Assembly (NCBI RefSeq): GCF_900156625.1
Contig: NZ_FTOB01000001.1
Span: 1 to 64,000, forward strand
Direction of reading: 5' to 3'
Source: Zobellia uliginosa
Lineage (GTDB): Bacteria > Bacteroidota > Bacteroidia > Flavobacteriales > Flavobacteriaceae
DNA length: 64,000 nucleotides
The notes below the pieces were generated by a model. The model was given only the letters and a program-made list of their open reading frames with translations, had not been told where the DNA came from and did no database searches. The position numbers and the translations under genes were made by a program. Below are positions 34,088 through 53,177 of this stretch, in pieces (position 1 is the stretch's first letter; each line of letters opens with the position of its first letter).

Positions 34088-34092
34088 TTTTT

Positions 34093-35427: not shown

Positions 35428-35428
35428 T

Positions 35429-36397: not shown

Positions 36398-36674
36398 TTC
36401 CAGAAAACAAAAACACCACATAAAGCGACTATTTTTATTACGTTAATTACCATACTCCGGCAGATTGGTCGATACTAGTGCCCGCTTTAACGCCCTTCAT
36501 GCCGAGATAGTCTTTAATTTTAATAATTTTGAAGTAGTTGACACTAGTTTTGTGTTTCGAAAAACCTATTTACCAGGGTACAATTTGTCGTTTAGCCGTT
36601 TAAACCGTACGGCCAACACAAGATTACCTACAGCACCGTGCAACCGAAACGCTTATCAAAACCAAACGACCTAA
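36398..36674. other. Intergenic stretch before the GT2 gene
   Basis: These 277 bases hold no convincing gene. Two exact TAnnTTTG boxes occur at 36524-36531 (TAATTTTG) and 36545-36552 (TAGTTTTG), without a well-spaced TTTG. An internal promoter for the GT2 and ArnT-like genes is possible. Confidence 0.35.
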
Positions 36675-37739
36675 ATGACACAGACAATCAGCAAGAACGG
36701 TAAAGAAAAGCCCCTTGTTTCTATTATCTTGCCCGCATTTAATGAAGAAGCCATACTAGAAAAAAACGTATCGCTTTTATACGATTATTTGCAAACACTT
36801 GATAATTCATACCTGTGGGAAGTTCTAATCATAAATGATGGAAGCACGGACAAAACCAAGGCCATAGCCGATTCATTGGCCGAATCGATAAGCAATTTAA
36901 GGGCCTATCACCACATTGTGAATAGAAACCTAGGCACGGCTTTAAGAACAGGGTTTCAACACAGTAAGGGCGATTATGTTATAGTATTGGATATCGACCT
37001 CAGCTATTCCCCAGACCATATTGGAAAGCTCTTGTCTGAGATAGAGACTACCCAAGCGGATATGGTAATCGCATCTCCTTATATGAAAGGCGGCAAAAAC
37101 ACCGATGTACCCTTATTAAGACTTTTGCTCAGCAAAACGGTAAACTTTATGATGCGCAAAGCATCACGACTGAATATATACACCTTTACCGGTATGGTAA
37201 GAGCATATCAGGGGAATTTTATACGGTCTTTAAATACCAAATCGAGCACCTTCGACATTAACTCCGAAATTATCCTTAAGGCCTATATCTTACGGGCACG
37301 TGTGGTTGAAATACCCGCCCACCTCGATTGGTCGGAACAAAAAAAAATGGGCAAGGTACGTACATCGAGTCTGCGTATTGTCATGGGCATATTCAATGGA
37401 TTGGCCAATAGCTTTATGTTCAGGCCGTACATGTTTTTTTGGGTTTTGGGATTGACGATTTTTATATTATCGCTATATATTATCATCTGGATTTTCATCA
37501 ACACCTATAATGTATACCCTATGACGGCCGAAATGGCACAAGGTTTTGAAAATCGTTTTTCCCTGGCAGTATCGGAAGTCTTTAGACAACGGCCTTACTC
37601 ATTCATCGTTGGAGGTACTACCATGATCATTTCCATACAATTATTAGGACTTGGCTTTATATCGTTGCAAAAGAAAAGGTATTTTGATGAGCTATTTCAT
37701 TTAAATTCGGCCATTCTAAGAAAAACTAAAGGAAACTAG
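36675..37739 (+). CDS. GT2 polyprenyl-phosphate glycosyltransferase (DPM1-like)
   Basis: This 354-residue protein has a GT-A domain (VSIILPAFNEEAILEKN, LIINDGSTDKT and the DxD motif in VLDIDLSYSP). Two or more C-terminal membrane helices follow (about 255-285 and 310-335). This matches enzymes that load a sugar onto a polyprenyl phosphate. The next gene encodes a membrane transferase of the kind that uses such a donor, so the two probably work as a pair. Confidence 0.87.
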   Translation: MTQTISKNGKEKPLVSIILPAFNEEAILEKNVSLLYDYLQTLDNSYLWEVLIINDGSTDKTKAIADSLAESISNLRAYHHIVNRNLGTALRTGFQHSKGDYVIVLDIDLSYSPDHIGKLLSEIETTQADMVIASPYMKGGKNTDVPLLRLLLSKTVNFMMRKASRLNIYTFTGMVRAYQGNFIRSLNTKSSTFDINSEIILKAYILRARVVEIPAHLDWSEQKKMGKVRTSSLRIVMGIFNGLANSFMFRPYMFFWVLGLTIFILSLYIIIWIFINTYNVYPMTAEMAQGFENRFSLAVSEVFRQRPYSFIVGGTTMIISIQLLGLGFISLQKKRYFDELFHLNSAILRKTKGN

Positions 37740-37751
37740 AGTTTTGTTCAT

Positions 37752-39041
37752 ATGCACAAACCATTGATACTCCAAAATATAATTCGACTATTACCCCTGT
37801 TAGTAGTTTATATAGCTGTTGTTTTCATTTTCTCGTCGAACGATTTTTTCGGTGACGAAAGCAGACATTACCATTATGCGTTGAATATAAGTCAGGGGTT
37901 TTATGAGAACGCAGACAACCCTAGCTTTAGAAACGGACCGGGCTATCCCATGATACTTGCCCCCTTTGTGGCATTGGATATGGGTTTTATTGGGGCCAAA
38001 CTTGTAAATGCGCTATTGCTTTTTTTGGCCCTCGTATATTTCAAAAAAACCATCGACCTTTTTACAAAAAGCCGTTTTAGTCTTGTCTTTGTGTATATGT
38101 TAGGGCTTTACCCCCCCATTATAAGATATGTTCCCTTGCTCTATTCGGAACCCTTAGCTTATTTTACTTTTTGCGGCTTGGTCTATCACTATTGCAAAGT
38201 ATGCCTTACAAAGCAATTCGACTGGAAACAGATAGCCATAGCTTCTGTCTACCTTGGTTTTTTGGTCTTGACCAAAATCATATACCTACAAGTTATTTTA
38301 GCGAGCTTTTTCATTTTGGGGGTCGTTTCCGTATGGAAGCGAAACCATGAAACCAAAAAATCAATCTTGGTCCTTTGTGGCGGCTTTTTGTTCATTACCC
38401 CTTACTTGTTTTATGCTTATAGCTTAACAGGAAAGATGCTGTATGTGGGCACTGGCGGAGGTGAAATTCTATATCACCGATCTACCCCATTTGAAAACGA
38501 ATTGGGAAACTGGTTCTCTGAAGAAGATGTGCTCAACGGACAAGACCCCAACTACAAACCTTCCTCCAAGGTTTATCGCGATTTAAGTGAGCTATCAAAA
38601 AACCACAGGGACTTTTACCTATCGATAGGACCAATGAGCCATATCGAACGAGATAGCGCCTTTAAAGCCGCCGCAATAGAAAACATGAAAGCCCACCCTC
38701 TCAAATATTTAAAAAATACAGTGGCCAATGTGGGACGCTTCACCTTGCACTACCCCTTTTCATATAGATCGCAAAACCTCAATACTTATGGTTTTATGCT
38801 TCCGAATGTCTTTTTAATATTTCTTTGGATGCTAAGCTTATACCCATTTTTTGTTGCCCGAAAAAACTTTCCCTTTGCTATACAAGCACTAATGGTTTTT
38901 AGTCTTATCTATGCAGGAGGTATCATACTCCTAGACGGCCGGGCAAGAAACTTTGTGATCATGGCCCCGATGCTCATCTTATTTTTCAGCTATGTATATA
39001 CCCGGGTTTTAAAAATCGAGATTAATTTTGGAACGAATTAG
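37752..39041 (+). CDS. ArnT/PMT-like membrane glycosyltransferase (GT-C)
   Basis: This 429-residue multi-pass protein has about ten hydrophobic helices. The first periplasmic loop carries FFGDESRHYHYALNI, where Asp35-Glu36 match the acidic catalytic site of the ArnT/PMT superfamily. It probably moves a sugar from a polyprenyl-phosphate donor (made by the preceding GT2) onto the polymer or a lipid on the outer face of the membrane. Its end overlaps the convergent GT4 gene by 20 bp. Confidence 0.82.
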   Translation: MHKPLILQNIIRLLPLLVVYIAVVFIFSSNDFFGDESRHYHYALNISQGFYENADNPSFRNGPGYPMILAPFVALDMGFIGAKLVNALLLFLALVYFKKTIDLFTKSRFSLVFVYMLGLYPPIIRYVPLLYSEPLAYFTFCGLVYHYCKVCLTKQFDWKQIAIASVYLGFLVLTKIIYLQVILASFFILGVVSVWKRNHETKKSILVLCGGFLFITPYLFYAYSLTGKMLYVGTGGGEILYHRSTPFENELGNWFSEEDVLNGQDPNYKPSSKVYRDLSELSKNHRDFYLSIGPMSHIERDSAFKAAAIENMKAHPLKYLKNTVANVGRFTLHYPFSYRSQNLNTYGFMLPNVFLIFLWMLSLYPFFVARKNFPFAIQALMVFSLIYAGGIILLDGRARNFVIMAPMLILFFSYVYTRVLKIEINFGTN

Positions 39042-40113
39042 GAACGAGCCGATTAAAAATATCTTGCCATTTCTGACCAATTTTATCTATCGAGAATTTC
39101 TCTACATCTTTTGTAGCATTTTGGCCCAATTCTTTTCTCAAAGTCCTATTCTCGATTAGAATGTTCGTTTTCCGAACCATATCATCTACATCTTGATTAT
39201 TGACCAATAGCCCCGATCTTCCGTCTTGAATTATCTCCGAAGGACCGGAAATACAATCGTACGCAATACAGGCAATCCCTTGGGAAGCGGCTTCCATCAA
39301 AACCATGGGTAACCCTTCATATCTCGAGCACAACATAAAGATTTCAGATGTCTGCAAAATCTCTTTTATATCAGATCTGTACCCCGCAAATTCAATCGCT
39401 TCCGCAACCCCCAATTCTTCAGCTTTAGCCCGAAGAATAGACAAGCCTTTTGCTCCATCCCCAACAATTTTAAATTGCCAATCCGCGTGTTTCTTTACAA
39501 CACCGGCCACTATATACATCAGATTGTCAAAACCCTTATGATGAAATCGGTCAAGATTACCAGCTACAACTATGGTCTTATCGCTCCTGTCCTCTAATCC
39601 TAAACTCGGCTCGAACGATAAAGGGTTGGGCATGACAATCACATTTTTGTTTCTCTTTTCAAAAAAGGCTTTATCAAAAGAGGTAAGGATCGTAACGGTA
39701 TCAGGAAACCTATATAAGAAATCCCATAGAATCCTTTTTTTCAAAGAGACTTTAGTAGCTTGGAAATTATTATGTTCCGAAACCACTAATTTGATTCCAT
39801 ATAACCGAGAAATGGGTATAGTGACCAAACCCATAGTGTGAATATGCGAGCTAATAATATCAGGTCTATTAGACTTTTTTCTGTAGAAATCGCTTAAATG
39901 CCATGCTGCACGAACCAAATTAGAGTCAAAAATCATAAGAGTATCGTGCAATCTTACCCGTTCCACAGAGGGATTTAATTGATATCTATCCCCTTCCCTA
40001 AAAGTAATTATTCGAATTTTATGCCCTTTTTCAGAAAAATAATTTGCCAATGTAGCTACAACCCTTTGTGCCCCATCACTCCCTAAGTTGCTAATTACAA
40101 AATCTATCCGCAT
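39022..40113 (-). CDS. GT4 glycosyltransferase
   Basis: This 363-residue GT-B fold enzyme has the GT4 N-terminal pattern FVISNLGSDGAQRVVATLANY. The nucleotide-sugar region includes VAGNLDRFHHKGFDNLMYI and CSRYEGLPMVLMEAASQGIACIAYD split across the E-x7-E motif. It adds one sugar to the lipid-linked repeat unit on the cytosolic face. It is the last gene of the minus block and overlaps the ArnT-like gene at its 3' end. Confidence 0.9.
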   Translation of the reverse strand: MRIDFVISNLGSDGAQRVVATLANYFSEKGHKIRIITFREGDRYQLNPSVERVRLHDTLMIFDSNLVRAAWHLSDFYRKKSNRPDIISSHIHTMGLVTIPISRLYGIKLVVSEHNNFQATKVSLKKRILWDFLYRFPDTVTILTSFDKAFFEKRNKNVIVMPNPLSFEPSLGLEDRSDKTIVVAGNLDRFHHKGFDNLMYIVAGVVKKHADWQFKIVGDGAKGLSILRAKAEELGVAEAIEFAGYRSDIKEILQTSEIFMLCSRYEGLPMVLMEAASQGIACIAYDCISGPSEIIQDGRSGLLVNNQDVDDMVRKTNILIENRTLRKELGQNATKDVEKFSIDKIGQKWQDIFNRLVPNSFQN

Positions 40114-40239: not shown

Positions 40240-43161
40240 CTAATTTGGCGCTACCCGAGAATAAGAATCAGCACCGTAATTTAGATCCCCAGGTTTTCTT
40301 GTTATTATCCTCAAGTCGCTCATGTAGGTTTCCAAATAGCCTATACCTTGGTTCTTCGAAGCTTCTACATTTCCACTATTGGCCCAGGGCCATTTGTAAA
40401 TTCCCCATTTAGCATTTCCACCCCATGGATAACCCGATAACATGGTCGACACCTGCCTATCATACACTTTCTTGCCATCTATCCAAACTTGTAAGAGGCC
40501 ATTGGACGAATTTCCCCAAATGGCATGAACGACCACATCTATAGTTTGCCCGGCTCTTGGGACAATTCCCGTTGGATTGAACTTTTCTCCACCTGCCGCG
40601 TTGGTAACATAGATTTCACCTGCTTCATGACCTATAAATTGCCCTCCATGAATAATTTCCAATCCAATCTGAGGAGCTTTTCCAACAATACCGTTATGAA
40701 CTTGAAAGAATTTCCATTGCGAGTTCTCATCTATGATATAATTGTCTCCGAAAGTATAGCTCCAACCAAACCATTCTTCAGTACCACTTTCGTGGCGCAC
40801 GTCCCAAGGCCCCGTTCGAATTTCGGCCCGCAAATTAAAATCTCTTGAACACCAATCTTCCGTATCGGGTACCGTCGGGTCGACCTTAAATTTTATCCTA
40901 TTGCCGCTTTTGGTTACTTGTCGTTCGTAGCACTCAGAGTCAATATGCAATTCCCCATTGCTAAAGGCCGCCCCCTTACTTCCTGAATAGCTTGGGATAT
41001 CAATATTTGCCCAGCACCAAATTTTTTCACCCGAATCGTTGGCAAAACCACCTCTCACACTACAATCTATATTACCAATCGGCACCTGTGCTACCGTAAT
41101 TGTAAGATTATCGGTATTGACAAGCCCCTCTTCATCGCGTACCGTAAGGTTTACCATATACGTTCCCGGATTATTAAAAGTATGGGAAGGGTTGGTGCTT
41201 GATGACGTACCGTCACTGAAATCCCAAGAATAACCCACGATCCCCTTGTCATCGCTCGAATCTCCTCCCGTAAAATCAACTTTTAGTGGGGCTTGACCTG
41301 AGAGGACACTTGCCGAAGCTACCGCAGTCGGAGCCTCATTTTGCGGGGCAGTTACTGTAATACTTATATGCTCCACGTCTTTTAGTCCGCCTTTATCGAC
41401 CACCTCCAATTTAACTGAATATGTTCCCGGAGTATCAAAGGTATGCTTAGGATTCGCTTCAGTGGAAATCGCCCCATCACCAAAGTCCCACTTATAACCG
41501 ATAATTTCATTATCATCCGTTGAATTGCTACCCGTAAAACGAATTTCTACCGGAGCTTCACCCGATTGGGAACTGGCAGAGGGTTTTGATACCGGGGGAT
41601 CGTTTTTAGGCTCTTCTACTGTTATCGTAACAGTCTTTTTGTCGATAAGCCTTTCTTCGTCGCCTACCGTAAGTTCGACTACAAAAGTTCCGGCCTTGGC
41701 AAAAGTATGGACTGGATTTGCGGTACTTGCCGTTTTTCCATCCTTAAAGTTCCAAGCGTACGTTTTGATTCCTTGGTCATCACTTGACCCACTTCCTGTA
41801 AAGCGAACCTCTAGAGGAGCTTCTCCCGACTTTGTATTAGCACTAATTTTTGCGGTAGGCGCTTCATTTTTAGGTGCTGAAACCTTAATGGTAAGTTTAC
41901 CCGAAGAGGATAATCCTTCTTCGTCCCTTACTTGCAATACAATGTCATAAGTGCCGGCCTCTGTAAAAGTGTGCTCGGGGTTTTTAGAGCTAGCCGTTTC
42001 CCCGTCCTTAAAGTCCCACTGGTACGAAACCACGGCTTTATCATCCGATGAATCACCCCCATTAAAACTGACCTTCAACGGCAAGGTCCCTTCCTTGGGA
42101 GTGGCACGGACAACGGCGACAGGAGCTTCGTTCGCCGGACTTGTAGGAGGTTCGGGAACCTCGGGGTTTTCCTCCACCGGTTCTTCTTCTGCGGGAGTTT
42201 CTTCTTCAACGGAATCATCAATCGGTTCTTCCTCTTCTACAGGAGTCTCTTCCTCACTGGGAGTTTCAACAGGCTCCCCCTCTACAGGAGCCTCTTCCCC
42301 AACGGGGTCATCAACAGGTTCTTCCTCTCCTTCTTGTTCGGTATCGTTACCCTCTGGATCCTGACCCTGCCCTTCAGTGGTATCTTCCCCTGGTTCGTCA
42401 TTTGAGTCCAATTCGCTTTCTTCATTGGCGCCTAGGTTTTCCAATTCCAAAATTTTAGTTCCGACAGGTACTTCATAAGACACGACCAACTTACTCCCTC
42501 CTATAGCACTTTCCTTTGAGGCAAAGGCCAAATCGTCCCCATCTTTATGATCTAACACAAGGCTTGTATACCCTGTAGACAGATAGCTTTCATTTAAATC
42601 GATACGCACCTCTGAATTAACTCTAAATTCTTGCTCGACCACACCTAAAATATGTTCTATCTCAGGAGCAGATTCTTTGGTAAGATCAGTCTCACTCCAA
42701 TCATTTGAGCTTCCCTTATAAACATCTATTTCCCCATTCCCATCATCGGAATTTACCACAAAAACCAAATTTGCTTCAGTAATTTTGCCCTTAATAGAAT
42801 CTATCGGACTTAAATCAAACATAAGATAACTTGTTCTCCGATTTTCCTCAAGCCTCATCAATGGTTCATTATAACCAATTCCGTTTTGAAGATAAGCATC
42901 ATTGATAGGGTGAAAAACCACCGTTCGAATCTCAGTCTCTTCCTCTGTTAATTGACCCTCTTGCTGACCTTCTCCCAGGTTTTCTTCAATTTCAGACTCC
43001 TCACTATCTATTACACTGTCGTCATCAATAGGAATTATGGGCTTGCTAAAAACAGCATCTTTTAAGTGGTCTACGTCTTTACTACAAGCAAGATTCAATA
43101 AAAAAGTTACGCCTAAAAAAAAGAAAACAAAGACGAACGTTCGTTTGGGGATAGTGTTCAT
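40240..43161 (-). CDS. Multidomain lipoprotein with PKD repeats and polysaccharide-lyase-like domain
   Basis: This is a 973-residue lipoprotein (Cys26). A DNRLRE/CBM96-like carbohydrate-binding domain (about 78-232) comes first. An acidic Glu/Pro/Thr linker follows (about 241-344), then four PKD domains (about 345-695; core motifs QWDFKDG, AWNFKDG, KWDFGDG, SWDFSDG). The C-terminal domain (about 700-973) is of the heparin-lyase-I-like type (PF14099), with RAEIRT, WKFFQVHNG and KWGIYKW. It is probably displayed at the cell surface, where it may bind and cleave a uronic-acid polymer. Two shorter genes in the same block encode the same catalytic domain. Lyase activity is inferred from family resemblance. 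Confidence 0.82.
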   Translation of the reverse strand: MNTIPKRTFVFVFFFLGVTFLLNLACSKDVDHLKDAVFSKPIIPIDDDSVIDSEESEIEENLGEGQQEGQLTEEETEIRTVVFHPINDAYLQNGIGYNEPLMRLEENRRTSYLMFDLSPIDSIKGKITEANLVFVVNSDDGNGEIDVYKGSSNDWSETDLTKESAPEIEHILGVVEQEFRVNSEVRIDLNESYLSTGYTSLVLDHKDGDDLAFASKESAIGGSKLVVSYEVPVGTKILELENLGANEESELDSNDEPGEDTTEGQGQDPEGNDTEQEGEEEPVDDPVGEEAPVEGEPVETPSEEETPVEEEEPIDDSVEEETPAEEEPVEENPEVPEPPTSPANEAPVAVVRATPKEGTLPLKVSFNGGDSSDDKAVVSYQWDFKDGETASSKNPEHTFTEAGTYDIVLQVRDEEGLSSSGKLTIKVSAPKNEAPTAKISANTKSGEAPLEVRFTGSGSSDDQGIKTYAWNFKDGKTASTANPVHTFAKAGTFVVELTVGDEERLIDKKTVTITVEEPKNDPPVSKPSASSQSGEAPVEIRFTGSNSTDDNEIIGYKWDFGDGAISTEANPKHTFDTPGTYSVKLEVVDKGGLKDVEHISITVTAPQNEAPTAVASASVLSGQAPLKVDFTGGDSSDDKGIVGYSWDFSDGTSSSTNPSHTFNNPGTYMVNLTVRDEEGLVNTDNLTITVAQVPIGNIDCSVRGGFANDSGEKIWCWANIDIPSYSGSKGAAFSNGELHIDSECYERQVTKSGNRIKFKVDPTVPDTEDWCSRDFNLRAEIRTGPWDVRHESGTEEWFGWSYTFGDNYIIDENSQWKFFQVHNGIVGKAPQIGLEIIHGGQFIGHEAGEIYVTNAAGGEKFNPTGIVPRAGQTIDVVVHAIWGNSSNGLLQVWIDGKKVYDRQVSTMLSGYPWGGNAKWGIYKWPWANSGNVEASKNQGIGYLETYMSDLRIITRKPGDLNYGADSYSRVAPN
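42130..42441 (-). repeat. Low-complexity acidic linker coding repeat
   Basis: This segment encodes about 100 residues dominated by Glu, Pro, Asp and Thr with imperfect repeats of EEEP and EETPVEEE type. It separates the N-terminal binding domain from the PKD repeats. It is probably an extended spacer and may vary in length between strains. Confidence 0.7.
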
Positions 43162-43279
43162 AAGTAGTTCTGGGGTAGTTGTATTTTAATCCATAAGTTC
43201 GCCGCTATATACGATAAAAACACATAGTTTGGTCGACAAAAGGTTCAAAATAACCGATTAACAGATAAAACCAACAACT

Positions 43280-44101
43280 TTATTCACTAGTGTTCAGAAC
43301 TTCCTTTAATTGTTCAGGCCTATTTTTAGAATACAGTTCCGGGTCTTTATGATGTAAGCCGTCCTTACTAAACCCATTAGGGTAATATGTAATAGAACTA
43401 AAATACTCGCTTAACAACTCCCCTCCCCTATTTACCTCCATTTTTTCAACATAATCTTTATTTGAAACAGGAAGCGGAGGAGAAACTATCTTAAAGTCTA
43501 TATTATTTCTTCTACAAATCGAATCCATTTTAGCCAAGTACTTAAGGTTGACCTTCGATATATTATAGGGGGCAGCTAAAGTATCGTTCAAAATATCGAA
43601 TGCATTTTGTAATTCAAAATTGGAAAACTTATACTTTAACAGGTCACGATCAGGAAAAATATGTTCAATATATTTTTTTTCTTCTCTATCTAAGTTTTTG
43701 AGAAGTGGACGAAAAGGCTTAATAAAGTAATTATATGTATATGGTTGATTTAGTGACGAAATTAAAGTACGAGGATTGATAACCAATACCAAATTTTGGA
43801 ATTTAGACTTACGTTTTAGCAAATTCAGCAGAAGCAGATAGTTCCCAGGTATCTCATAACTCTGATTTTCACATAAACAATAAACATCATCATCTTTCAG
43901 ATTGCCAAAAAACTGGCGACAAACAGAATCACCCAAAAGGATTGTAAAACTATCGACATTATTTTTTTCGGTTTCTTCAACAAGATCATATACCTCTTTC
44001 GATTCATTTAAATACAAAGCATATTTCGTATTAAAAAAAACGATTACCAGCCCCATTGGTATGAGAAAAAAAATGAAAATATGTTTAAAAAAATTTTTCA
44101 A
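43280..44101 (-). CDS. SGNH-hydrolase-like membrane protein, MBOAT partner
   Basis: This 273-residue protein has an N-terminal membrane anchor (about 7-27) and a periplasmic domain with a GDSV motif (Gly57-Asp58-Ser59) resembling the SGNH nucleophile block. A possible Asp/His end lies in SKDGLHHKDPELY. Its start overlaps the MBOAT gene end by 4 bp, so the two are coupled. In alginate and similar systems an MBOAT protein passes acyl groups to a periplasmic SGNH-type transferase. I infer the same here; the SGNH assignment is moderate. Confidence 0.68.
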   Translation of the reverse strand: MKNFFKHIFIFFLIPMGLVIVFFNTKYALYLNESKEVYDLVEETEKNNVDSFTILLGDSVCRQFFGNLKDDDVYCLCENQSYEIPGNYLLLLNLLKRKSKFQNLVLVINPRTLISSLNQPYTYNYFIKPFRPLLKNLDREEKKYIEHIFPDRDLLKYKFSNFELQNAFDILNDTLAAPYNISKVNLKYLAKMDSICRRNNIDFKIVSPPLPVSNKDYVEKMEVNRGGELLSEYFSSITYYPNGFSKDGLHHKDPELYSKNRPEQLKEVLNTSE

Positions 44102-45519
44102 AACTGAAAATATATAAATGATTTTTCCCCTCCGAACTTAGCCGTTATAAAAACTAATAAAACAATAGTCAAAACGAACCAAAATGATTTGCTCACATGT
44201 GCTAAACGTTCATCTCTTCGAAAAATCCATTCTAACAAAATCAAGGGCACTATGTAATAAACAAAATAATATTTATAGGATACGTGAAACGAAAAATCCG
44301 TGAAAATCCTTCCAATATAATCAAACGCCTGTAAAGCGTTTTCACTTCTAAAAAAAACCCAGGCAATAACTACGAAAAAAAAGTTTGTACCCATCTGCCA
44401 AATTTCTCTCAAAGATGGGAAAACCCTGTTCTCAGCCACTACCTCACTTAGGTACTTCCTATTAGTTTTCAGAACAAACGAGGGTATATATAATATAGCG
44501 TGAATCAATCCCCATATCACAAACGTCCAATTTGCTCCATGCCAAAAGCCACTGACCAAAAATATCACAAAAACATTCCTAAGAGACTGCCACTTCCCTG
44601 CCCTAGAGCCCCCTAACGGAATATATAGATAATCTCTAAACCAAGTAGACAAGGAAATATGCCATCTTCTCCAAAACTCCCCGATATTACGAGAGAAATA
44701 AGGGAATTTAAAATTTGACATGAGTTCAAATCCGAAAAGCTTAGACGTCCCAATGGCCATATCGGAATAACCGCTAAAATCACAATATATTTGAAAAGCA
44801 AAGTATACCGCTCCAAGAAAAAGTGTGCCTCCATCAAAAGAGGAGTACCCCGTAAAAATGTTATCGACTATTGGAGCAAGAGAATCGGCAATAACAACCT
44901 TTTTGAACATCCCCCAGAGTATTAAACGAAGGCCTTGTTCCGCAGTACGATAATCAAAAACCCTTTTCTTTAGAATTTGAGGAAGCAAATTAGTGGCCCT
45001 TTCTATTGGACCAGCAACCAATTGAGGGAAAAAAGAAACAAAAGACGCAAAGGAAACAAAGTCTTTGGTGGGCTTTAGGTTACCCCTATACACATCAATA
45101 GTGTAAGACATTGTTTGAAAAGTATAAAAAGATATACCTACAGGCAAAATAATATTCAGCGTCCATTTACTCTCTAGTTGATATCCGAAACCTCGAATGA
45201 GGTCAACCCAAGAATCAACAAAAAAGTTATAATATTTAAACACTCCCAAAACCCCTAAATTGAATAAAACACTTATCCAAAGGAATATTTTTTTCATTTT
45301 AGGAACTGTCTGCTTTTCAACTTCCAACCCTACGTAATAATCTATAACTGTAGATAGAAATATGAGAAATAGAAAACGATAATCCCACCAGCCATAGAAC
45401 ACATATGAACTGACAAGAACCAACAAGTTCTGATACCTTAGTTTATTACTGAAAACGAACCAATAAAGTAAAAATACTATTGGTAAAAAAATGAGAAATT
45501 CTATCGAATTAAATAACAC
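44098..45519 (-). CDS. MBOAT-family O-acyltransferase (AlgI-like)
   Basis: This 473-residue membrane protein has the AlgI/DltB-type core: FPQLVAGPIERA, FWRRWHISLSTWFRDYLYIPLGG (His287, in two parts) and the catalytic-type His327 in SGFWHGANWTFVIWG. It probably carries acetyl groups across the inner membrane for O-acetylation of the exopolysaccharide. It is translationally coupled to the SGNH-like gene and flanked by lyase-like genes. Confidence 0.92.
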   Translation of the reverse strand: MLFNSIEFLIFLPIVFLLYWFVFSNKLRYQNLLVLVSSYVFYGWWDYRFLFLIFLSTVIDYYVGLEVEKQTVPKMKKIFLWISVLFNLGVLGVFKYYNFFVDSWVDLIRGFGYQLESKWTLNIILPVGISFYTFQTMSYTIDVYRGNLKPTKDFVSFASFVSFFPQLVAGPIERATNLLPQILKKRVFDYRTAEQGLRLILWGMFKKVVIADSLAPIVDNIFTGYSSFDGGTLFLGAVYFAFQIYCDFSGYSDMAIGTSKLFGFELMSNFKFPYFSRNIGEFWRRWHISLSTWFRDYLYIPLGGSRAGKWQSLRNVFVIFLVSGFWHGANWTFVIWGLIHAILYIPSFVLKTNRKYLSEVVAENRVFPSLREIWQMGTNFFFVVIAWVFFRSENALQAFDYIGRIFTDFSFHVSYKYYFVYYIVPLILLEWIFRRDERLAHVSKSFWFVLTIVLLVFITAKFGGEKSFIYFQF

Positions 45520-45744
45520 TTCTTAATTGTTAGGACTTCGCCAAACTCCATTTCAAAACAAATTATATTCTGTTTTAAAACTACAAATGGGAGAACATAT
45601 TTCAAGTGTCAAAACTAAGGCTAATTTCTAAGCTTTTTTATGTAGACACCTATATTTTAATAATAAAACCTTTCCTATCAACTTGTCATATTTGCAAAAC
45701 ATTCGAGCCAATTCAAGGTATTTCAAAAAACTTTTAATTCAACG

Positions 45745-46713
45745 CTAATTCGGGTCTACCAAAGAATATGCATCCTCCAAATAATCTGAATCACCCGGTT
45801 TCCTAGTTACAATTCGCAATGCTCCCATGTAAGTATCCAAACGTTCGATTCCTTGTTGTATAGATTTATCGACCCCTTCCGAGTTTGCCCAGGGCCACTT
45901 ATAAATACCCCATTTTGCATTACCGCCCCAAGGATGCGAATTCACAATTGTAGATACTTGCTTATTAAAGACAGGCTTGTCGTTAATCCAGACCTGCAGC
46001 AGCCCAATTTTCGCGTCGCCATAAACCACATGAACCACTATATTTATAGTTTCTCCCGCTTTTGGCAAAACACCGGTAGGATTGTAATTCGCCGATTCGT
46101 CAGCAACAGTAACATAAATTTCCCCAGCTTGATGCCCTTTAAATTGGTTAGCATTAACAATCTCAAGCCCTATTTGCGGAGATTGTCCTACAACACCGTT
46201 ATGTACTTGAAAAAATTTCCATTGGTTATTCTGGTCAATGATATAGTTATCGCCAAATGTGTAACTCCAACCGAACCACTCTTCCGTACCAAGTTCATGG
46301 CGAACATCCCACGGAGCAGTGCGAATCTCGGCCCTCATATTATAATCTCTTGAACACCAATTATTTACAGCAGGGTATATTGGGTTAACAGAGAACTTTA
46401 TCCGGTCATTTTCAATTATAACCTGTTTTTCATAACATTCCGAATCTACATGAAGATAACCATTACTAAGAGCGACCCCTTTTTTACCCGTATAACTAGG
46501 TATGTTTACATCTTGCCAACACCACGATTTTAGTCCTTTATCATCTGCAAACCCACCTTGGGTAAAACAGGGTGTGTTTTTTGGAACAGATATGGTTTGT
46601 GTATCTGGAGTCGCCTGCTCTTTATTTTGTAGCAAAGAAGCATCTTTAGAACAGGATACAAACTGTACCATACACAGGGTCAACAGCCCCAATTTCCCGA
46701 AACGTACCACCAT
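45745..46713 (-). CDS. Polysaccharide-lyase-like lipoprotein
   Basis: This 322-residue lipoprotein (lipobox FVSC, Cys21) has a single heparin-lyase-I-like domain (PF14099 type, about 48-320). Motifs are RAEIRTAPW, EEWFGWSYTF, WKFFQVHNG, LLQVWIND and KWGIYKWPW. Over one 59-residue stretch I count 52 identities to the C-terminal domain of the 973-residue protein, so the two are recent paralogues. It probably cleaves the same polymer, perhaps the exopolysaccharide made by this cluster. Catalytic residues are not assigned. Confidence 0.78.
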   Translation of the reverse strand: MVVRFGKLGLLTLCMVQFVSCSKDASLLQNKEQATPDTQTISVPKNTPCFTQGGFADDKGLKSWCWQDVNIPSYTGKKGVALSNGYLHVDSECYEKQVIIENDRIKFSVNPIYPAVNNWCSRDYNMRAEIRTAPWDVRHELGTEEWFGWSYTFGDNYIIDQNNQWKFFQVHNGVVGQSPQIGLEIVNANQFKGHQAGEIYVTVADESANYNPTGVLPKAGETINIVVHVVYGDAKIGLLQVWINDKPVFNKQVSTIVNSHPWGGNAKWGIYKWPWANSEGVDKSIQQGIERLDTYMGALRIVTRKPGDSDYLEDAYSLVDPN

Positions 46714-47064
46714 AGAAATATGCCGACAAAGTGCGAAAAACTTTATCTAAATTGATATTCGACCGCTACAACTAAATAGCTATCGAACAAGGTTAAGTTT
46801 ATGTGTGAAAATCAACCAGAAAACCATTTAATCTTCTTGGCCAACCCTTAATTTGGTACTATTTAAACGAAGTCGTGTGTGGTTTATTATCTTTCTTCCT
46901 ACATATAAAATTAAAGGAGGTGTAGATTACATGGCAACTAGCTTAGTAACTATAAAACCGAAACAACCAACGGTCGGAACGATTTCAAAGAAGTCTAATT
47001 CTATATTAAAAAAAATCGGAATCCCCCCTCTAAACCAATATCGACCAAAAGAAAGTCGTGAAGG
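46714..47064. other. Intergenic region between two lyase-like genes
   Basis: There is no minus-strand gene in these 351 bases. A plus-strand open frame of 51 codons (46931-47086) starts after a strong AAGGAGGTG and is listed separately. I see no clear minus-strand promoter. Confidence 0.45.
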
Positions 47065-47086
47065 TCAGTCTGGCATTACCTCATGA
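46931..47086 (+). CDS. Possible small protein behind a strong Shine-Dalgarno
   Basis: ATG at 46931 follows AAAGGAGGTG after about 8 bp, close to a perfect anti-Shine-Dalgarno match and unusual for this phylum. The 51-residue product is basic (several Lys) with no membrane helix. It is antisense to the spacer and overlaps the 3' end of the lyase-like gene by 22 bp. I do not recognise it, and it may be chance. Confidence 0.2.
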   Translation: MATSLVTIKPKQPTVGTISKKSNSILKKIGIPPLNQYRPKESREGQSGITS

Positions 47087-48111
47087 TAAGACGGCTTGAG
47101 GTAATCTTTGTCTAGGGGCTTCCTGGTAATTATACGAAGAGCCCCCATAGAGGTACTCAAAGAAGTCACCCCTTGCACTTTCGACTCTTCAATTTTATCG
47201 GCATGGGTCCAGTTCCATTTATAAATACCCCATTTTGCATTCCCCCCTACAGGGTTGCCCGCCCTTACGGTTCTTTGTTTTTTGTTGAGGACCATTATTC
47301 CATTTATCCAGACTTGCAACAGCCCTCCCGTATGGTCTCCCCATATTACATGAACAACAATCCTAAGTGTATCTCCAGCTTTCGGTATAAAGCCAGTAGG
47401 ATAATAAAAACTTTTTGAGGCATAGGCATTATTTACCACATGAATCTCGCCCCCTTTTGAACTACCCGGGCCACCTTGGTTCATACTCCATAATGCAATA
47501 AGAGGAGGCTTCCCCCATGTTCCTTCATGTACCTGAAAAAAAAGCCAAGGATTTTTTTTATCAATAATATAATCTTCATCAAAGGAATAATCCCATCCAA
47601 ACCATTCTTCCGTACCCATGGGGTGGTTGACCAACCAAGGAGCAGTCCTTATTTCAGCCCTCATGTTATAAGGCCTTTCACAATTATCGTTAGAAATAGG
47701 CTCTTGGGGATTTATATGAAACCTAAGCCGCCCCTCATAAATACTGACCTGATCTGCATTACACTCTGTATCGATTTTCAAGTGATGTTCACCAAGAAAT
47801 ATCTTTTTGCTTCCCACACTACTGAGCGAACATGACATATCCGCCCAACACCAAATTTTACACCCACTTTCATCAGCACGTCCCCCTTGGGTTACGCATC
47901 TCGATTTTTCTGTTGAATCGATACCAATGGGTCCCTTTCCATCACTTTCCTTTACCATACCCATATAATCTTCGCTGCCAGAATAGGTCAATTCCCCTAT
48001 AAGCCCCGATGTTTGCCTTACTCCTTTTTTTCGTATCGAAGTGTCCCCATATTGAAGCGAAAACGATACAAACACAGTTACCACGAATACATAAGCCCAA
48101 TTCTTTGACAT
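47065..48111 (-). CDS. Polysaccharide-lyase-like exported protein, divergent paralogue
   Basis: This 348-residue protein has an N-terminal signal peptide or anchor (about 6-19) without a lipobox cysteine, so it is probably soluble in the periplasm or secreted. The domain (about 75-347) is of the same heparin-lyase-I-like type (RAEIRTAPW, EEWFGWDYSF, LFFQVHEG, KWGIYKWNW) but clearly diverges from the other two copies. The cognate of QIGLEI reads LIALWS, so the substrate cleft may differ. It lies 27 bp downstream of a GT4 gene in the EPS block. Confidence 0.75.
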   Translation of the reverse strand: MSKNWAYVFVVTVFVSFSLQYGDTSIRKKGVRQTSGLIGELTYSGSEDYMGMVKESDGKGPIGIDSTEKSRCVTQGGRADESGCKIWCWADMSCSLSSVGSKKIFLGEHHLKIDTECNADQVSIYEGRLRFHINPQEPISNDNCERPYNMRAEIRTAPWLVNHPMGTEEWFGWDYSFDEDYIIDKKNPWLFFQVHEGTWGKPPLIALWSMNQGGPGSSKGGEIHVVNNAYASKSFYYPTGFIPKAGDTLRIVVHVIWGDHTGGLLQVWINGIMVLNKKQRTVRAGNPVGGNAKWGIYKWNWTHADKIEESKVQGVTSLSTSMGALRIITRKPLDKDYLKPSYHEVMPD

Positions 48112-48138: not shown

Positions 48139-49251
48139 TCACATATTTTGGTACAGGCGCTTATATTCAAGCACAATCTTATCCCAAGTATAACTAGAAG
48201 CTACTTTTTTTTGAGCATTAAGTCCCAGCTTATCAAAAGAAGCCCTGTTATTTTCTATCCATTTAATCTTATCCGCCAAGTCACCTACATTTTTATTCTC
48301 AAAAAAAAGGACTTCCTCTTGACTAAAGACCTGTGTATTTTCAGGTATATCGCTGGCTAAAATAGGCTTACCCGTCGTGGCCACCTCAAGAAGCATAATA
48401 GACATACCTTCCGTTTCCGAAGGAAAAACAAAATACTCACTTCGTTCTACCAAAGCTAACAAGGGAGACAAAGGGCTCACAAAACCCAAAAAATGAACCT
48501 TTAGGCCAGTAGCCAGTCTTTTTATTCGTTCTATATATGCGGGATAATTATCCAATTCTCCTGCGATAAAGATATGCCCTTTATAATCCATTTTCTTATA
48601 TGCCTCAAGCATAGTGTGCAACCCTTTCGTTCCCATAATCCTTCTCGCAGCAAATAACACATAAGGAGTGTCTTGAGGCAGGCCAACAGGCCAAAACTCA
48701 ATGTCTCCCGAATGTTGTTTTCCTTCGGTAAGATTAATTCCGTTGGGAATAAACAACACATCGACATTGTTTTGTTCTTTATAAAAATCGCAAAGGGGGC
48801 GTGAGATAGCCGTTTTTACTCCTTTAAAATTCAAAAACCTTCGTTCGCATACTTTGAAAAAAAATTTTGCCAGTTTACCCCATTTATCTCTTTTATAAGG
48901 AGCTTCATGCGCCGTAGCTATAACCTTAGCACTTTTCGACAAACCATTCAAGAAAAAGAAACTATCTATTTTATGCGCATGGACAATATCATACTTGCCC
49001 AAAAAACGAATATGTAAATAACACAGAAAATAATATAAGAAAACACCAAAATTGCCAAATTTAATTTCCGGAAATTGAACCACTTCAACCCCTTTTATAT
49101 GTTTCTTAGCCTGCTCATTTTTGTAACAATAGATAGTAATGTGGTAATCGTCGACCAAGTTTAGTATAATATTTTCAGCTACCCGGCTAGTACCCCCTCG
49201 AGAAGGGAAATATTTTATTCCGAAAAAGGCAATTCTTTTCTTGTCTTTCAT
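48139..49251 (-). CDS. GT4 glycosyltransferase
   Basis: This 370-residue GT-B enzyme begins RIAFFGIKYFPSRGGTSRVAENI, a common GT4 N-terminus. The donor-binding region includes YVLFAARRIMGTKGLHTMLEAY and FPSETEGMSIMLLEVATTGKP with the E-x7-E pattern. It probably adds one sugar to the repeat unit in the cytosol. It lies 28 bp after the next upstream GT gene. Confidence 0.9.
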   Translation of the reverse strand: MKDKKRIAFFGIKYFPSRGGTSRVAENIILNLVDDYHITIYCYKNEQAKKHIKGVEVVQFPEIKFGNFGVFLYYFLCYLHIRFLGKYDIVHAHKIDSFFFLNGLSKSAKVIATAHEAPYKRDKWGKLAKFFFKVCERRFLNFKGVKTAISRPLCDFYKEQNNVDVLFIPNGINLTEGKQHSGDIEFWPVGLPQDTPYVLFAARRIMGTKGLHTMLEAYKKMDYKGHIFIAGELDNYPAYIERIKRLATGLKVHFLGFVSPLSPLLALVERSEYFVFPSETEGMSIMLLEVATTGKPILASDIPENTQVFSQEEVLFFENKNVGDLADKIKWIENNRASFDKLGLNAQKKVASSYTWDKIVLEYKRLYQNM

Positions 49252-49279
49252 TTTATTTAATCTCTAAAAAGATCTATCA

Positions 49280-50416
49280 TCAGACCGTTTTTGAACAGGC
49301 GTCAGTTTGATTCCTTACCAACATACACCCTTCCTTGATTTCCAAATTGTCAATATGATCGATCAATTTTAGATAATTCGAGCGAAAGGTGTTATAACTA
49401 AAATTCGCAGTTAAATGTTCAAGACTCGATTTGCCCATTTTAGATCTCAATGAAGGAGAAAGCACCAATTCCTTGAGATAATTGCTTAGTTTCTCAACAT
49501 CATCAACTTCTGCTACAAAACCATTCTTGCCATGCAGCACCAACCTTTCATTATCTCCCGCATCGGTAGTTACTATCGGCAACGAACAGTTCATTGCCTC
49601 CATAATCGCATTACTCACGCCTTCAAAGGAGGAAGTACATAAATAAATATCGGCAGAAAGCAATAGCTCGAAAATATCCTTAGGCTCGGTAATAAGTTCG
49701 ACTTCTTGTTCCAAATTTTGTTTTTTTATCTCTGTGCGTATTATTTCTTCACCCGGCCCTTGACCTACAATGGTATAACTAATACTCTTATCAGTGTCAC
49801 CAAGGTTCTTTTTTAAACGAGCTATGCATTTTAAAGCAACGTCGTACCTTTTTTGTTCAACAAGCCTTCCCAAGCTAATAACCTTAATAACACTTTCTTT
49901 TTTTTCGCGATTAGGCACCAGCTTCAATTCTATTCCATTGGAGATAACAAAAACCTTTTTCTTAAAACCGAATTTCAAAGCCGCCCTGTAAGCAGCAAAA
50001 TTATTGGCTATCGTATAGTCAAGAATAAAATTGTTTGCCCATTTTAGACCTATGAACTTTGCACGGGCTAAATAACTGTTTCTGATACCACCTATTACAT
50101 ACGGAACCCCTACAATTTTCCCTAAAATTGCCGAAAAAATACTATCCGTAGGTAAAAATGAAAAAATTATATCTATCTCATTACACCTTAAAAAACGAAT
50201 GAAACTCAAACTTTTCAAAACAATGTTAGCTGGCAAAAAAACGTGTTCAATACTTTCCTTTTCGATAAAAGAAATATGCGGCCCATGTATTGGCTTATCA
50301 CTTAGAACGACAACAGTAACATTATGATTTCCTCTTAAAGCTTTGGCCAACAACAAACATTGCTTTTCTGCTCCTCCCCGGTTAAGTGAGTTGATCGTAA
50401 TGCAAATATTTTTCAT
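49280..50416 (-). CDS. GT4 glycosyltransferase
   Basis: This is a 378-residue GT-B enzyme. ITINSLNRGGAEKQCLLLAKA is the acceptor-side glycine-rich start of GT4 enzymes. KVISLGRLVEQKRYDVALK and SSFEGVSNAIMEAMNCSLPI form the donor site with E-x7-E. It assembles the lipid-linked repeat unit on the cytosolic face. Donor and linkage cannot be predicted. Confidence 0.92.
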   Translation of the reverse strand: MKNICITINSLNRGGAEKQCLLLAKALRGNHNVTVVVLSDKPIHGPHISFIEKESIEHVFLPANIVLKSLSFIRFLRCNEIDIIFSFLPTDSIFSAILGKIVGVPYVIGGIRNSYLARAKFIGLKWANNFILDYTIANNFAAYRAALKFGFKKKVFVISNGIELKLVPNREKKESVIKVISLGRLVEQKRYDVALKCIARLKKNLGDTDKSISYTIVGQGPGEEIIRTEIKKQNLEQEVELITEPKDIFELLLSADIYLCTSSFEGVSNAIMEAMNCSLPIVTTDAGDNERLVLHGKNGFVAEVDDVEKLSNYLKELVLSPSLRSKMGKSSLEHLTANFSYNTFRSNYLKLIDHIDNLEIKEGCMLVRNQTDACSKTV

Positions 50417-50532
50417 ATGTACCTTAACTTTTCAGAATACAAACGAGCAACTCGATTTTCAAATAGAATTACCCGTATAACTTATTTAAATCTTGACGTA
50501 AATAGATACGCATGTAAACAGCTTGTCCGACG

Positions 50533-51741
50533 TTATGTGGCTGATATATTTTCAACAAATTTCCACATGTTTCCACCAAGGGTCCTATAGTCAAATTCTC
50601 TACGCCCCATTTCTTGACCCCGCAAGCCTATTTCCTTTGATTTTATCGGGTTTTCAATTATAAATTTCATCTCCTTTGAAAAGGCATCCATATTGTAACT
50701 ATTAGCTATCAACGCTGTTTTTCCATGTTCAAAATAGTTTTTCACCTCCCCTATATTCGTTGTAATAACCGGATTTCCTGAGGCCAAATACTCCCCTATC
50801 TTGTGTGGGAAACGTGCCCTATCTTGAACGGTTGGCCTTAAGGGTATTAATAAGGCTATAGCATTAACGTACAGCTGCACCAATTCAGAATAAGGTATAT
50901 TGGAAAATAATTTTATGGGCGCAGTTTTATATTGCTTATTGACTTCTGCCTGTAAGTCTTCCGTTTCTTTTACGCTACCTCCGCTTACAATCATGTACAA
51001 TTTAGTTTCTTCGTTATCGGCTATACGCTCATAAGCGCCAATAACGAAATCGCGCACTTCTTTGTACCTGAAACTACCACAATAAAGGAAGTAAGGCTCG
51101 CTATCCTTCCTTTTTACACTAAACTTGTCAAAATCACAAATAATGGGCACTTTCATGTTTGGCTTTCCAGGACAAACTTTGGCATAATACTCATGTAATT
51201 TATCACTGATTGGCAATGCTCCTTGATACAATTTAATCACCCAATTATCAAGAAAGAAATCGTTGATTCTTCGAAAAATAGAGGTTCTATGCTGCATTGA
51301 AGAAGCCATTTCCACCAAGTTCACAGCCATCGGCACATTCAACAACCTAGAAAATATCCAATAACGCAAAATGTGGACCACTTTCATCTCAGAGACAATA
51401 ATCATATCTATACCTTGGGACGACTTAAGCGCTTTCAACGTGCGAAACTCACCCAATATACCGGCAATCTTCTGTAAGTTTCTCCTGAGAAAACCTTTCG
51501 GTTTAAAAATACTTTGTGAAGTATAGCAATAATCTATTCCTTCAAATTCCCCCCGTAAAGGAAAGTTTGCATTGCCATCTTTAGAATGCACCCCTTTTCT
51601 ACAAATAACCGTAGACTTAGCCCCAACATGAACAAAGGCCCTAGCCATTAGGGTCAACCTTTGAATTGTTGCCAATCCCAAGGGAAAACCAGATTCCCCC
51701 AAAAAAACAATATGTTTACTACCAAGCTTCTTGTTGTGCAA
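50533..51741 (-). CDS. GT4-like glycosyltransferase
   Basis: This 402-residue GT-B type enzyme has an N-terminal GESGFPLGLATIQRLTLMA loop, and its C-terminal donor half contains YFLYCGSFRYKE and HKIGEYLASGNPVITTNIGE. It is more divergent than the two neighbouring GT4 genes but has the same fold signals. It lies 57 bp after the Wzx gene. It probably contributes to repeat-unit assembly. Confidence 0.82.
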   Translation of the reverse strand: MHNKKLGSKHIVFLGESGFPLGLATIQRLTLMARAFVHVGAKSTVICRKGVHSKDGNANFPLRGEFEGIDYCYTSQSIFKPKGFLRRNLQKIAGILGEFRTLKALKSSQGIDMIIVSEMKVVHILRYWIFSRLLNVPMAVNLVEMASSMQHRTSIFRRINDFFLDNWVIKLYQGALPISDKLHEYYAKVCPGKPNMKVPIICDFDKFSVKRKDSEPYFLYCGSFRYKEVRDFVIGAYERIADNEETKLYMIVSGGSVKETEDLQAEVNKQYKTAPIKLFSNIPYSELVQLYVNAIALLIPLRPTVQDRARFPHKIGEYLASGNPVITTNIGEVKNYFEHGKTALIANSYNMDAFSKEMKFIIENPIKSKEIGLRGQEMGRREFDYRTLGGNMWKFVENISAT

Positions 51742-51798: not shown

Positions 51799-53163
51799 CT
51801 ATCTCGCCCATATACCCTTGTCACTTTTTGACAAAATTTTACCAACCTGAACAGGTGATACGATGGCCACTGGGATTAAACTAGCTATTGTTCCCAATAT
51901 GATACCTACTACGCCCAGATCCAATACTTTTACAAAAAAGATAGATGCAGGTATATTAATACATGCCGCAAAAACCCAGGCATACATCTGTAGTTTTACC
52001 TTACCTGTACCGTTTAGAACAATGTTAAATATATTCACCCATGTAGTCAGGCTGACCGAAATCGCAACTGCCACTGAAACAACAATAGGAACTTCCAAGT
52101 GATCTTGCAACCATAACTTGTACACATACGGTGAAACAACTACCATAATTATTGCAATGACCAATGTACCTACCCAAACCTTCAGTACCGTCTTCAACGA
52201 TTTTCGCATCCATTCAAAATCCCCTTTAGCATATGCCTCTATATTCGAAGGCCACAACTGATTTGTAATTATAACAAAGAGCATTGTAAAGACGGAAAGA
52301 TATTTAAATGCTGCCTCGTACTGAGGTACACCTTCCAAAGAGACAAAACTGGCAATTAATATGTTATTGGTTTGATGTATGACAAGCATTGCCATTTTAA
52401 TGACAAAAAACTTGGTCCCCAAGGAAAATATATCTTTAAAATATTCGCGTTTTGCGTGTTTAAAGGAAGGCCTATACTTAATGAATTTACGTCTAAAATA
52501 AAAGATTCCTACCCCTAAAGGAACCAAAGCGAACGTAAGGGCTTTTGCCGATCCAAACAAAAACAAAGAATCCGATTGGATAAAAGGTAATATAAGAATC
52601 AGTACCAAAAATGAAAACTTCGTAAGAAAGGTGAAATATTCCACATATGCCATTTTTTGTAGGGCATAAAATATTTCATATACATTTCCTGCAATGAACC
52701 GTATACCGAAAGCTACGATAATCACCGCACCAAGCCATTTTACTTCGGGAACAAGAGAACTTTCTATGCTTAACCAATCAGTCCAAGGAAATGCAAAATT
52801 AATAATTAACAAAACGGCCACCACAAATACAATTATCATGGCTAGCGCAAAGTATGCCGTACTTACGTATGCAACAGCTTTTTCATCATCATTTTTAGCA
52901 ACGGCTTCACCGAATTTATTTCTGAGACCTAGGCCAATTCCAATATCAAAATTCAAGAACCAATCAACAACCGACAAAAGGGTAAGATAAATACCAAATT
53001 TAACGGCTCCTAAATAATCTAAAGACAATGGAAAATAAAGAAAGCCGATCAAGATACCGAGCCCCTTAATTAAAATAGTAAAAAATATATTCTTTTTAGC
53101 CTTTGCAGACCTACTCTTACCTTCTTTTCCAACTAGAGCTTTTACCTTTTCAAATAACTTCAT
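51799..53163 (-). CDS. wzx: Wzx-type repeat-unit flippase
   Basis: I start the protein at 53163 (MKLFEKVKALVGKEG). A longer open frame reaches 53418 but overlaps the Wzy gene by about 240 bp, and its extra residues look non-coding. The 454-residue product is a polysaccharide-export flippase (MATE/MVF-like) with about 12-14 membrane helices. Examples are ILIKGLGILIGFLYFPLSL and VGIILGTIASLIPVAIVSPV. It flips lipid-linked repeat units to the periplasmic face. It lies between Wzy and the GT genes. Confidence 0.88.
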   Translation of the reverse strand: MKLFEKVKALVGKEGKSRSAKAKKNIFFTILIKGLGILIGFLYFPLSLDYLGAVKFGIYLTLLSVVDWFLNFDIGIGLGLRNKFGEAVAKNDDEKAVAYVSTAYFALAMIIVFVVAVLLIINFAFPWTDWLSIESSLVPEVKWLGAVIIVAFGIRFIAGNVYEIFYALQKMAYVEYFTFLTKFSFLVLILILPFIQSDSLFLFGSAKALTFALVPLGVGIFYFRRKFIKYRPSFKHAKREYFKDIFSLGTKFFVIKMAMLVIHQTNNILIASFVSLEGVPQYEAAFKYLSVFTMLFVIITNQLWPSNIEAYAKGDFEWMRKSLKTVLKVWVGTLVIAIIMVVVSPYVYKLWLQDHLEVPIVVSVAVAISVSLTTWVNIFNIVLNGTGKVKLQMYAWVFAACINIPASIFFVKVLDLGVVGIILGTIASLIPVAIVSPVQVGKILSKSDKGIWAR

Positions 53164-53177
53164 ACGTGAATCTTGAC

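Follow-up and report, generated by a model that had tools for sequence, protein, structure and literature searches.

Lyase-like proteins of family PF14099 with different N-termini in a Zobellia exopolysaccharide cluster, and a leader shared with other exopolysaccharide-cluster proteins of Flavobacteriaceae

The first 64,000 nucleotides of contig NZ_FTOB01000001.1 of Zobellia uliginosa (hereafter the window; contig C16 of the 5.3-Mb genome G000, whose closest named relative in our searches was Zobellia russellii) contain an exopolysaccharide (EPS) biosynthesis cluster of the Wzx/Wzy type, which occupies 59548 to 39022 of the minus strand. Embedded in this cluster are three proteins with a lyase-like domain of the Pfam family PF14099, here called PL-A (973 amino acids (aa), 40240-43161), PL-B (322 aa, 45745-46713) and PL-C (348 aa, 47065-48111), all encoded on the minus strand. 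As an initial annotation of this DNA had stated, the three are paralogues with the same domain; each passes the PF14099 (Polysacc_lyase) cut-off of 29.9 bits, with scores of 47.1, 39.1 and 46.5, and these are the only three matches to the family in the genome. Over 270 positions of the lyase head, PL-A and PL-B are 66% identical, PL-A and PL-C 49%, and PL-B and PL-C 50%. The gene order of the cluster is a WcaJ-type priming enzyme, Wza, Wzc, Wzy, Wzx, three GT4-type glycosyltransferases, PL-C, PL-B, an MBOAT O-acyltransferase, its SGNH-like partner, PL-A and a last GT4 glycosyltransferase. The MBOAT/SGNH pair (43280-45519), initially described as flanking the trio, thus sits between PL-B and PL-A.

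The N-termini of the three proteins differ and are of at least two kinds. The large lipoprotein with PKD domains noted initially is PL-A, in which a lipobox cysteine and leader are followed by an acidic linker, a CBM96-type carbohydrate-binding module (CBM; approximately residues 76-232, 42466-42936), a second acidic linker, a stalk of four PKD domains (approximately residues 345-692, 41086-42129) and the lyase head (residues 704-973, 40240-41052). PL-B, correctly recognized as the small lipoprotein, joins its head to the leader SCSKDASLL. PL-C had been called probably soluble, and this description holds insofar as there is no lipobox cysteine within its first 70 residues; its hydrophobic N-terminus makes a membrane tether equally possible, so that the protein may be periplasmic, secreted or tethered to the inner membrane.

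With respect to the catalytic heads, an AlphaFold2 model of PL-B (mean predicted local distance difference test score (pLDDT) 86.4) was compared with solved structures using Foldseek. The first match was the PL20 glucuronan lyase 2zzj (E 3.5e-10, TM-scores 0.48/0.63, root-mean-square deviation 7.1), followed by PL7 and PL36 alginate lyases and, further down, by lectins. A profile of 32 relatives searched against solved proteins also recovered 2zzj (E 6e-5), together with one chance-level match; a viral fold library added nothing. These results show a relation to PL20 by sequence and fold and are no proof of a common CAZy family. The earlier label of heparin-lyase-I-like is loose: the nearest solved structure is the PL20 enzyme, and heparin lyase I (PL13) was not among the 50 PDB matches listed, the best 50 of 1154. 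Specifically, the conserved set in PL-B comprises R127, E129, Q169, H171, K267 and Y271, and all of these except H171 are invariant in 40 of 40 heads (PL-B numbering). By eye, the order of the motifs RxE, Qx(H/Y) and KxGxY in the heads is that of RxEL, QIH and YFKxGxY in the three PL7 enzymes of the genome, though a profile comparison with these enzymes was not significant. The profile and fold match to 2zzj and the invariant residues make beta-elimination of a uronate the likely chemistry of the heads.

The association of such heads with EPS synthesis is conserved in other genomes. Using PL-B as the query, we found 18 loci in other records, and 17 of these contain EPS glycosyltransferase genes or the five-gene cassette that faces the cluster in the window (see below). 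Together with the confinement of all PF14099 matches of the genome to this cluster, the linkage supports the view that these enzymes belong to the EPS producer. The eighteenth locus (L020:9281-10828) lies in a gammaproteobacterial metagenome-assembled genome (Granulosicoccaceae), where a 515-aa member of the lyase subfamily was found with no EPS gene nearby; gene transfer or a binning error may account for it. The number of PF14099 copies per locus ranges from one to three, with three in L004, L007, L015 and L018, and also in L008 and L014 if these are two ends of one cluster. Another genome of the genus, G001, has three PF14099 proteins together and a fourth elsewhere, whose domain (C1:304439-304969, L065) is part of a 1809-aa protein adjoining SusC/D; this fourth protein is likely a catabolic member.

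A second feature shared across EPS loci is the lipoprotein leader itself. After the signal peptide, PL-A begins with CSKDVDHL and PL-B with CSKDASLL, and the consensus of the leader is CSKDxDLL, after which come residues such as xEYV or xEAVL. A DNA pattern for CxKDxxLL is matched exactly at three sites in the genome and at none in the reversed control, and all three lie in lipoproteins of EPS loci: PL-B (46631-46653, minus strand) and a pair of proteins encoded in a second Wza/Wzc cluster on contig C13. The latter are paralogous pectate-lyase-like lipoproteins that have in common a CSKDxDLL leader and a cadherin-like module. Their cluster (approximately 622000-660000 of C13; L081, L082) also holds two nucleotide-sugar dehydrogenases and a DUF2264 protein. 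In terms of known sorting signals, the leader resembles the lipoprotein export signal (LES) of Bacteroidota in that positions +3 and +4 from the lipidated cysteine are K and D, and it shares with the SDDFE consensus of Flavobacterium johnsoniae a serine in first place, as given in the excerpted part of PMC5080379. It departs from the LES in that the second acidic residue of the consensus leader is at +6 rather than +5, with none there in PL-B, and in that the following LL lies outside the LES.

The bare CxKDxxLL pattern was rejected as a stand-alone test, being unspecific: across 149 genomes, matches per genome were about as frequent as in the reversed control (judged by eye, not totalled), and a sample of 30 matched loci included only one real lipoprotein start (L111). 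Nine of ten C[ST]KDx[DE]LL places picked by eye among the matches listed are leaders of EPS-locus proteins, and the tenth (L119) is not a leader. Only protein profiles separate the leader proteins, namely one of the leader plus cadherin-like module (A3) and one of the PL-A anchor, comprising leader, acidic linker and CBM96 (A6). In 149 Flavobacteriaceae genomes, A3 identified 15 places at E <= 2.4e-35 in nine genomes, followed by a gap to 2e-13. Ten of these places are members of the profile, and the other five (windows L159, L160, L161 and L163) are all in EPS loci; at least two EPS markers were present in four of four held-out windows with leader and cadherin-like module. One weak match (L242) has no open frame with a leader. 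Among 345 genomes of the class, A3 matched only the genome of the window, in a scan that scored about 11 candidates per genome and had most known carriers outside its sample.

The CBM96-bearing anchor of PL-A is also found elsewhere in Flavobacteriaceae, joined to heads of unrelated folds (jelly-roll, beta-helix and alpha/alpha). The N-terminal 300 residues of PL-A (leader, acidic linker and CBM96) share 35-53% identity with those of 11 other proteins, and in five of these the heads are quite different. The module scores 32.7 bits against a Pfam cut-off of 26, and its model has a mean pLDDT of 75.4 over 240 residues, with most fold blocks above 85. Its three best fold matches in the PDB are two chains of a chondroitin-sulfate-binding CBM (8wab, E 4.4e-9) and an alginate-binding CBM (7vbo, E 9.7e-7), and the ligands of both contain uronic acid; the A6 sequence profile gave no PDB match at 0.1. 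The founding CBM96 binds the internal alginate chain, according to the excerpt of PMC9971899. Whereas the matched modules are described, in the parts of the sources used here, as parts of an alginate lyase and a chondroitinase, that of PL-A follows an EPS-cluster lipoprotein leader. The proposal that the polymer of this cluster contains uronic acid therefore finds indirect support in the nearest solved structures of both head and CBM.

Of 299 genomes searched with A6, 14 yielded a total of 20 places that span leader and CBM96. Six of these places are training rows; the remaining 14 of 14 are in EPS loci, as are seven further leader plus CBM96 proteins (L165, L166, L218-L221 and L224). With the training rows set aside, at least two EPS markers accompany leader plus CBM96 in 21 of 21 windows, a count whose members are not all independent: L204 looks almost identical to L015, one of the A6 rows, and L212 and L224, whose contigs match those of L021 and L012 in length, seem to be the same clusters as these. 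The corresponding figures are 0 of 19 for CBM96 without the leader (L222, L223 and L225-L241) and 2 of 21 for PF14099 loci without the leader. The CBM96 comparators were assembled from six places initially taken as CBM96-only, of which four (L218-L221) turned out to hold leader or N-terminal anchors within EPS loci and two (L222 and L223) were true comparators, and from 18 added places, of which L224 is a leader plus CBM96 protein in an EPS locus and the other 17 (L225-L241) have no leader and fewer than two EPS markers (one in L235); two places listed by the A6 search, G225:C33 and G050:C11, are outside this set. Further comparators (L167 and L168, with cadherin-like modules other than the leader type, L119 and L083) have no EPS marker.

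Taking leader proteins as a class, we inspected 47 clusters, with L015, L008/L014 and L020 left out of the count. Leader proteins are present in 44 of them (none in L005, L006 and L013) and number 71, three of which are cut at an end, leaving 68 heads that fall into five sizeable families and two singles. The largest family is the PF14099 type (24 members), followed by pectate-lyase-like heads (14), which match pectate lyase 9buj (E 1.8e-42) and VexL (6fi2, E 8.1e-11) in the PDB. An alpha/alpha type (10) shows weak similarity to GH76 and GH127 with no Pfam match over the cut-off, a beta-helix group (9) passed the Pfam cut-off in all three members scanned, and a fifth family (9) gave beta-helix matches in four of its nine members. 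Alpha/alpha heads on EPS-locus leader proteins were observed in L214, L205, L217, L124, L125, L121 and L165 (head alignment A7).

Leader proteins of the same cluster tend to have heads of the same family. This is the case for 18 of 27 same-cluster pairs, against a shuffle mean of 5.7 (0 of 20,000), although the shuffles do not model relatedness, which is only partly controlled among the clusters. Fourteen of the 18 matched pairs are on different anchor types, and the other four are on the same type (the C13 cluster of the genome itself, G018, G129 and G283). When the PF14099 clusters (head family 0), which were partly found through that head, are excluded, 11 of 20 pairs match (mean 4.38; 51 of 20,000). 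A weaker excess persists when near relatives are excluded along with the PF14099 clusters (9 of 18 pairs, mean 4.06; 261 of 20,000). In three cases the last 300 residues of two proteins, one CBM96-anchored and the other not, are 90% (G050), 87% (G224a) and 91% (G302) identical, as would be expected if a head had recently been copied from one anchor to another.

In a phylogeny of 40 heads, PL-A and PL-B of the window and of Z. russellii group together with support that is not strong (85/68), while PL-A and PL-B of three other Zobellia genomes form a separate group (98/92). Approximately unbiased (AU) tests across the five Zobellia, for which the PL-A, PL-B and PL-C groups were named after inspection of the tree, reject a single clade of PL-A (p 0.0127) and of PL-B (p 0.011). 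The heads of PL-A and PL-B thus group by cluster type and not by position. The two cluster types are also distinguished by gene content: the MBOAT gene, its partner and the last GT4 gene are present in the window and in L004; L007, L008 and L066 have an extra glycosyltransferase instead (L008 ends inside PL-A).

Taken together, we consider it reasonably likely that the trio are endo-acting lyases with which an EPS producer cuts its own uronate polymer, and that they are part of a modular kit of leader and anchors in EPS clusters of Flavobacteriaceae. Under this model, one catalytic head would be displayed on different N-termini. PL-C would be exported with no lipid anchor and act in the periplasm or at the inner membrane, as AlgL does in the periplasm, and PL-B would act as a short lipoprotein at the outer membrane. 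In PL-A, the CBM96-type (uronate-binding-type) module may hold the polymer while the PKD stalk reaches into the capsule or matrix. Between them, the three could remove polymer that has stalled, determine chain length or liberate the chain during export, and detach it from the cell surface. The MBOAT pair may acetylate the polymer and so protect parts of it against the lyases, as acetyl groups do in alginate. In the kit as a whole, the leader and the two main anchors (cadherin-like and CBM96) would be kept while the head is exchanged to match the polymer. The initial interpretation, in which three lyases in different cell locations would act in stages on the uronate polymer of their own maker, is partly supported by these findings, as regards the link to the EPS maker and, indirectly, the uronate polymer; the wider pattern of a common leader with exchangeable heads was absent from it. 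We are evenly divided on a stronger version, a dedicated addressing system in which the leader with a cadherin-like or CBM96/PKD anchor marks a protein as an EPS-cluster cutter, heads of three unrelated folds are swapped onto these anchors and copied between those of one cluster, which would place an identical cut at two or three different distances from the membrane, and the leader is recognized by, or held near, the EPS export machinery.

Other explanations must be weighed against own-polymer cutting. The lyases could serve in foraging, digesting algal or other foreign uronate polymers while lying near EPS genes by accident; the genome does possess three PL7 alginate lyases, a SusC/D-like pair (named by reading, with no Pfam scan) occurs in the window at 766-5572, and the fourth PF14099 protein of G001 adjoins SusC/D. 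The pair in the window is nonetheless 35 kb from the lyases and is the nearest to them, SusC/SusD is found in none of the 20 windows surveyed, and the conserved EPS linkage and the presence of all three PF14099 matches of the genome in this one cluster make foraging improbable. More plausible, but still unlikely, is that the heads are matrix lectins that bind EPS, have lost the ability to cut and tether the capsule to the cell. The jelly-roll fold is common to lectins, a protein with a CBM96 module and PKD stalk such as PL-A would suit tethering, and H171 is replaced by Y in two of the 40 heads (and kept in 38). The invariance of the other five motif residues argues for catalysis, and the same anchors bear pectate-lyase-like, other beta-helix and glycosidase-like heads, which suits cutting over binding. 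It is very improbable, finally, that the proteins serve in defence against kin or rivals rather than in synthesis, with surface lyases cutting EPS of the same type made by neighbours or stopping the cell itself from becoming glued in: the leader, CBM and long stalk of PL-A would suit such a role and the variation of heads between clusters on like anchors is what social conflict could yield, whereas the lack of a lipid anchor on PL-C and the tendency of heads to match within a cluster speak against it.

Several further observations weigh against own-polymer cutting by a shared kit, as does the loss of H171 in two heads. We found no described activity for this PF14099 subfamily, R131 is a serine in 13 of 40 heads, and an hhalign comparison of the heads with the three PL7 enzymes of the genome gave a probability of 0.1%, with no significant similarity. 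The EPS cluster of the window has no nucleotide-sugar dehydrogenase, the two strong ones of the genome being in the C13 cluster. Members of this dehydrogenase family were found in 12 of 13 carrier genomes searched, yet also in 13 of 14 control genomes, and being near universal they carry little weight and were not used as evidence. The orthology of PL-C across Zobellia was not rejected (p 0.286), and PL-C therefore need not share the history of PL-A and PL-B. Head families are mixed in some clusters: G001b, G249b, G224b and G202 pair a pectate-lyase-like head with one of the beta-helix group, and the four leader proteins of G129 represent three head families. In addition, two leader modules occur with no head. 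The first A3 match under the gap (E 2e-13; G037, L164:4839-5303; 154 aa) reads SCEKDNDLMTEYV and has no EPS marker on its 8.8-kb contig; the other (G075:C15, L243:9691-10035; 114 aa) reads SCAKDTDLV and likewise lacks a nearby EPS marker. Both combine the leader with a cadherin-like module and may be orphaned or damaged copies of it, or else a small protein with a different function. Lastly, the minimal surface-export signal tested in Capnocytophaga is K-(D/E)2 (C-x-K-(D/E)2), KD alone being insufficient in the excerpted part of PMC5080379, and neither PL-B (C-S-K-D-A-S) nor PL-A (C-S-K-D-V-D) has an acidic residue at +5. As the leader falls short of this signal, the display of PL-A and PL-B on the cell surface must be regarded as a prediction.

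That a lyase may be encoded in an EPS cluster or act on its producer's own EPS is already known. AlgL (PL5) of Pseudomonas is likewise encoded with the synthesis genes of its polymer in alginate operons; it clears the periplasm, and the role of lyases in synthesis clusters is disputed. It differs in being a single periplasmic enzyme with an (alpha/alpha)5 toroid fold, whereas three copies, two with lipoprotein leaders, are present here (PMC8829089, in excerpt). The welan lyase WelR (PMC7899989) and RbmB of Vibrio cholerae also act on the EPS of their producer; unlike the present proteins, no anchor series or common leader is described for either in the portions of the sources consulted. A PL12 enzyme of Maribacter dokdonensis 62-1 lies in a flavobacterial EPS cluster and a link between degradation and synthesis was proposed for it, but it has no predicted signal peptide and is not of the PF14099 family, as far as the excerpt of PMC8072126 states. 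The best solved match by profile and fold, TrGL (2zzj), is a fungal enzyme (Trichoderma reesei) with 14% identity in the Foldseek alignment. We know of no EPS cluster, lipoprotein leader or stalk for TrGL. VexL, which we take to be a Vi-antigen depolymerase encoded with its capsule locus, is a protein of solved structure related to the pectate-lyase-like heads that follow a leader of this kind, and is unrelated to the PF14099 heads of the window.

In the open-licence PMC literature we found no description of the leader, the lyase trio, one head on different anchors, unrelated heads with a common leader or anchor, or the copying of heads. Makers of EPS and capsules must stop, trim and release their polymer, and a varying head on a constant anchor offers natural swaps for testing where cutting matters. 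The leader may also be a sequence tag by which polymer-specific EPS cutters can be revealed from genomes, including those whose heads have no Pfam family over the cut-off; there is demand for such enzymes in the production of oligosaccharides and the disruption of biofilms.

The remaining genes of the EPS cluster, all on the minus strand, are the WcaJ-type priming glycosyltransferase (58157-59548), the Wza-type export protein (PF02563; 57237-58058), the Wzc-type chain-length kinase (54616-57135), the Wzy-type polymerase (PF04932; 53178-54563), the Wzx-type flippase (51799-53418, an open reading frame probably listed too long at its 5' end), three glycosyltransferases (48139-49251, 49280-50416 and 50533-51741, together spanning 48139-51741), the MBOAT O-acyltransferase (44098-45519), its partner (43280-44101) and the GT4 glycosyltransferase 3' of PL-A (39022-40113). 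The partner has no Pfam match, and we take it to be SGNH-like from GDS and DGLH motifs seen by eye. Promoter and terminator scans were near shuffle level. In G011, a nucleotide-sugar dehydrogenase (L062:210-1514) and a heparinase II/III-type protein (L062:5242-7218) are encoded within the same EPS cluster as two PF14099 lyases (L062).

Head-on to the EPS cluster lies a five-gene cassette on the plus strand (33089-39041) encoding an NAD-dependent epimerase/dehydratase, an FAD oxidoreductase, a polysaccharide deacetylase, a GT2 glycosyltransferase and a 429-aa membrane protein. A homologue of its last gene is present in 14 of the 18 loci of other records, and the cassette adjoins the lyases in most of the 18. 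Its products may modify the polymer or a glycan linked to it. Near the SusC/D-like pair, the window also encodes two related secreted proteins (9432-10649 and 10806-12050), presumably GH117-like, and a secreted protein with no Pfam match (12387-13376). This region is probably a locus for the utilization of an algal polysaccharide.

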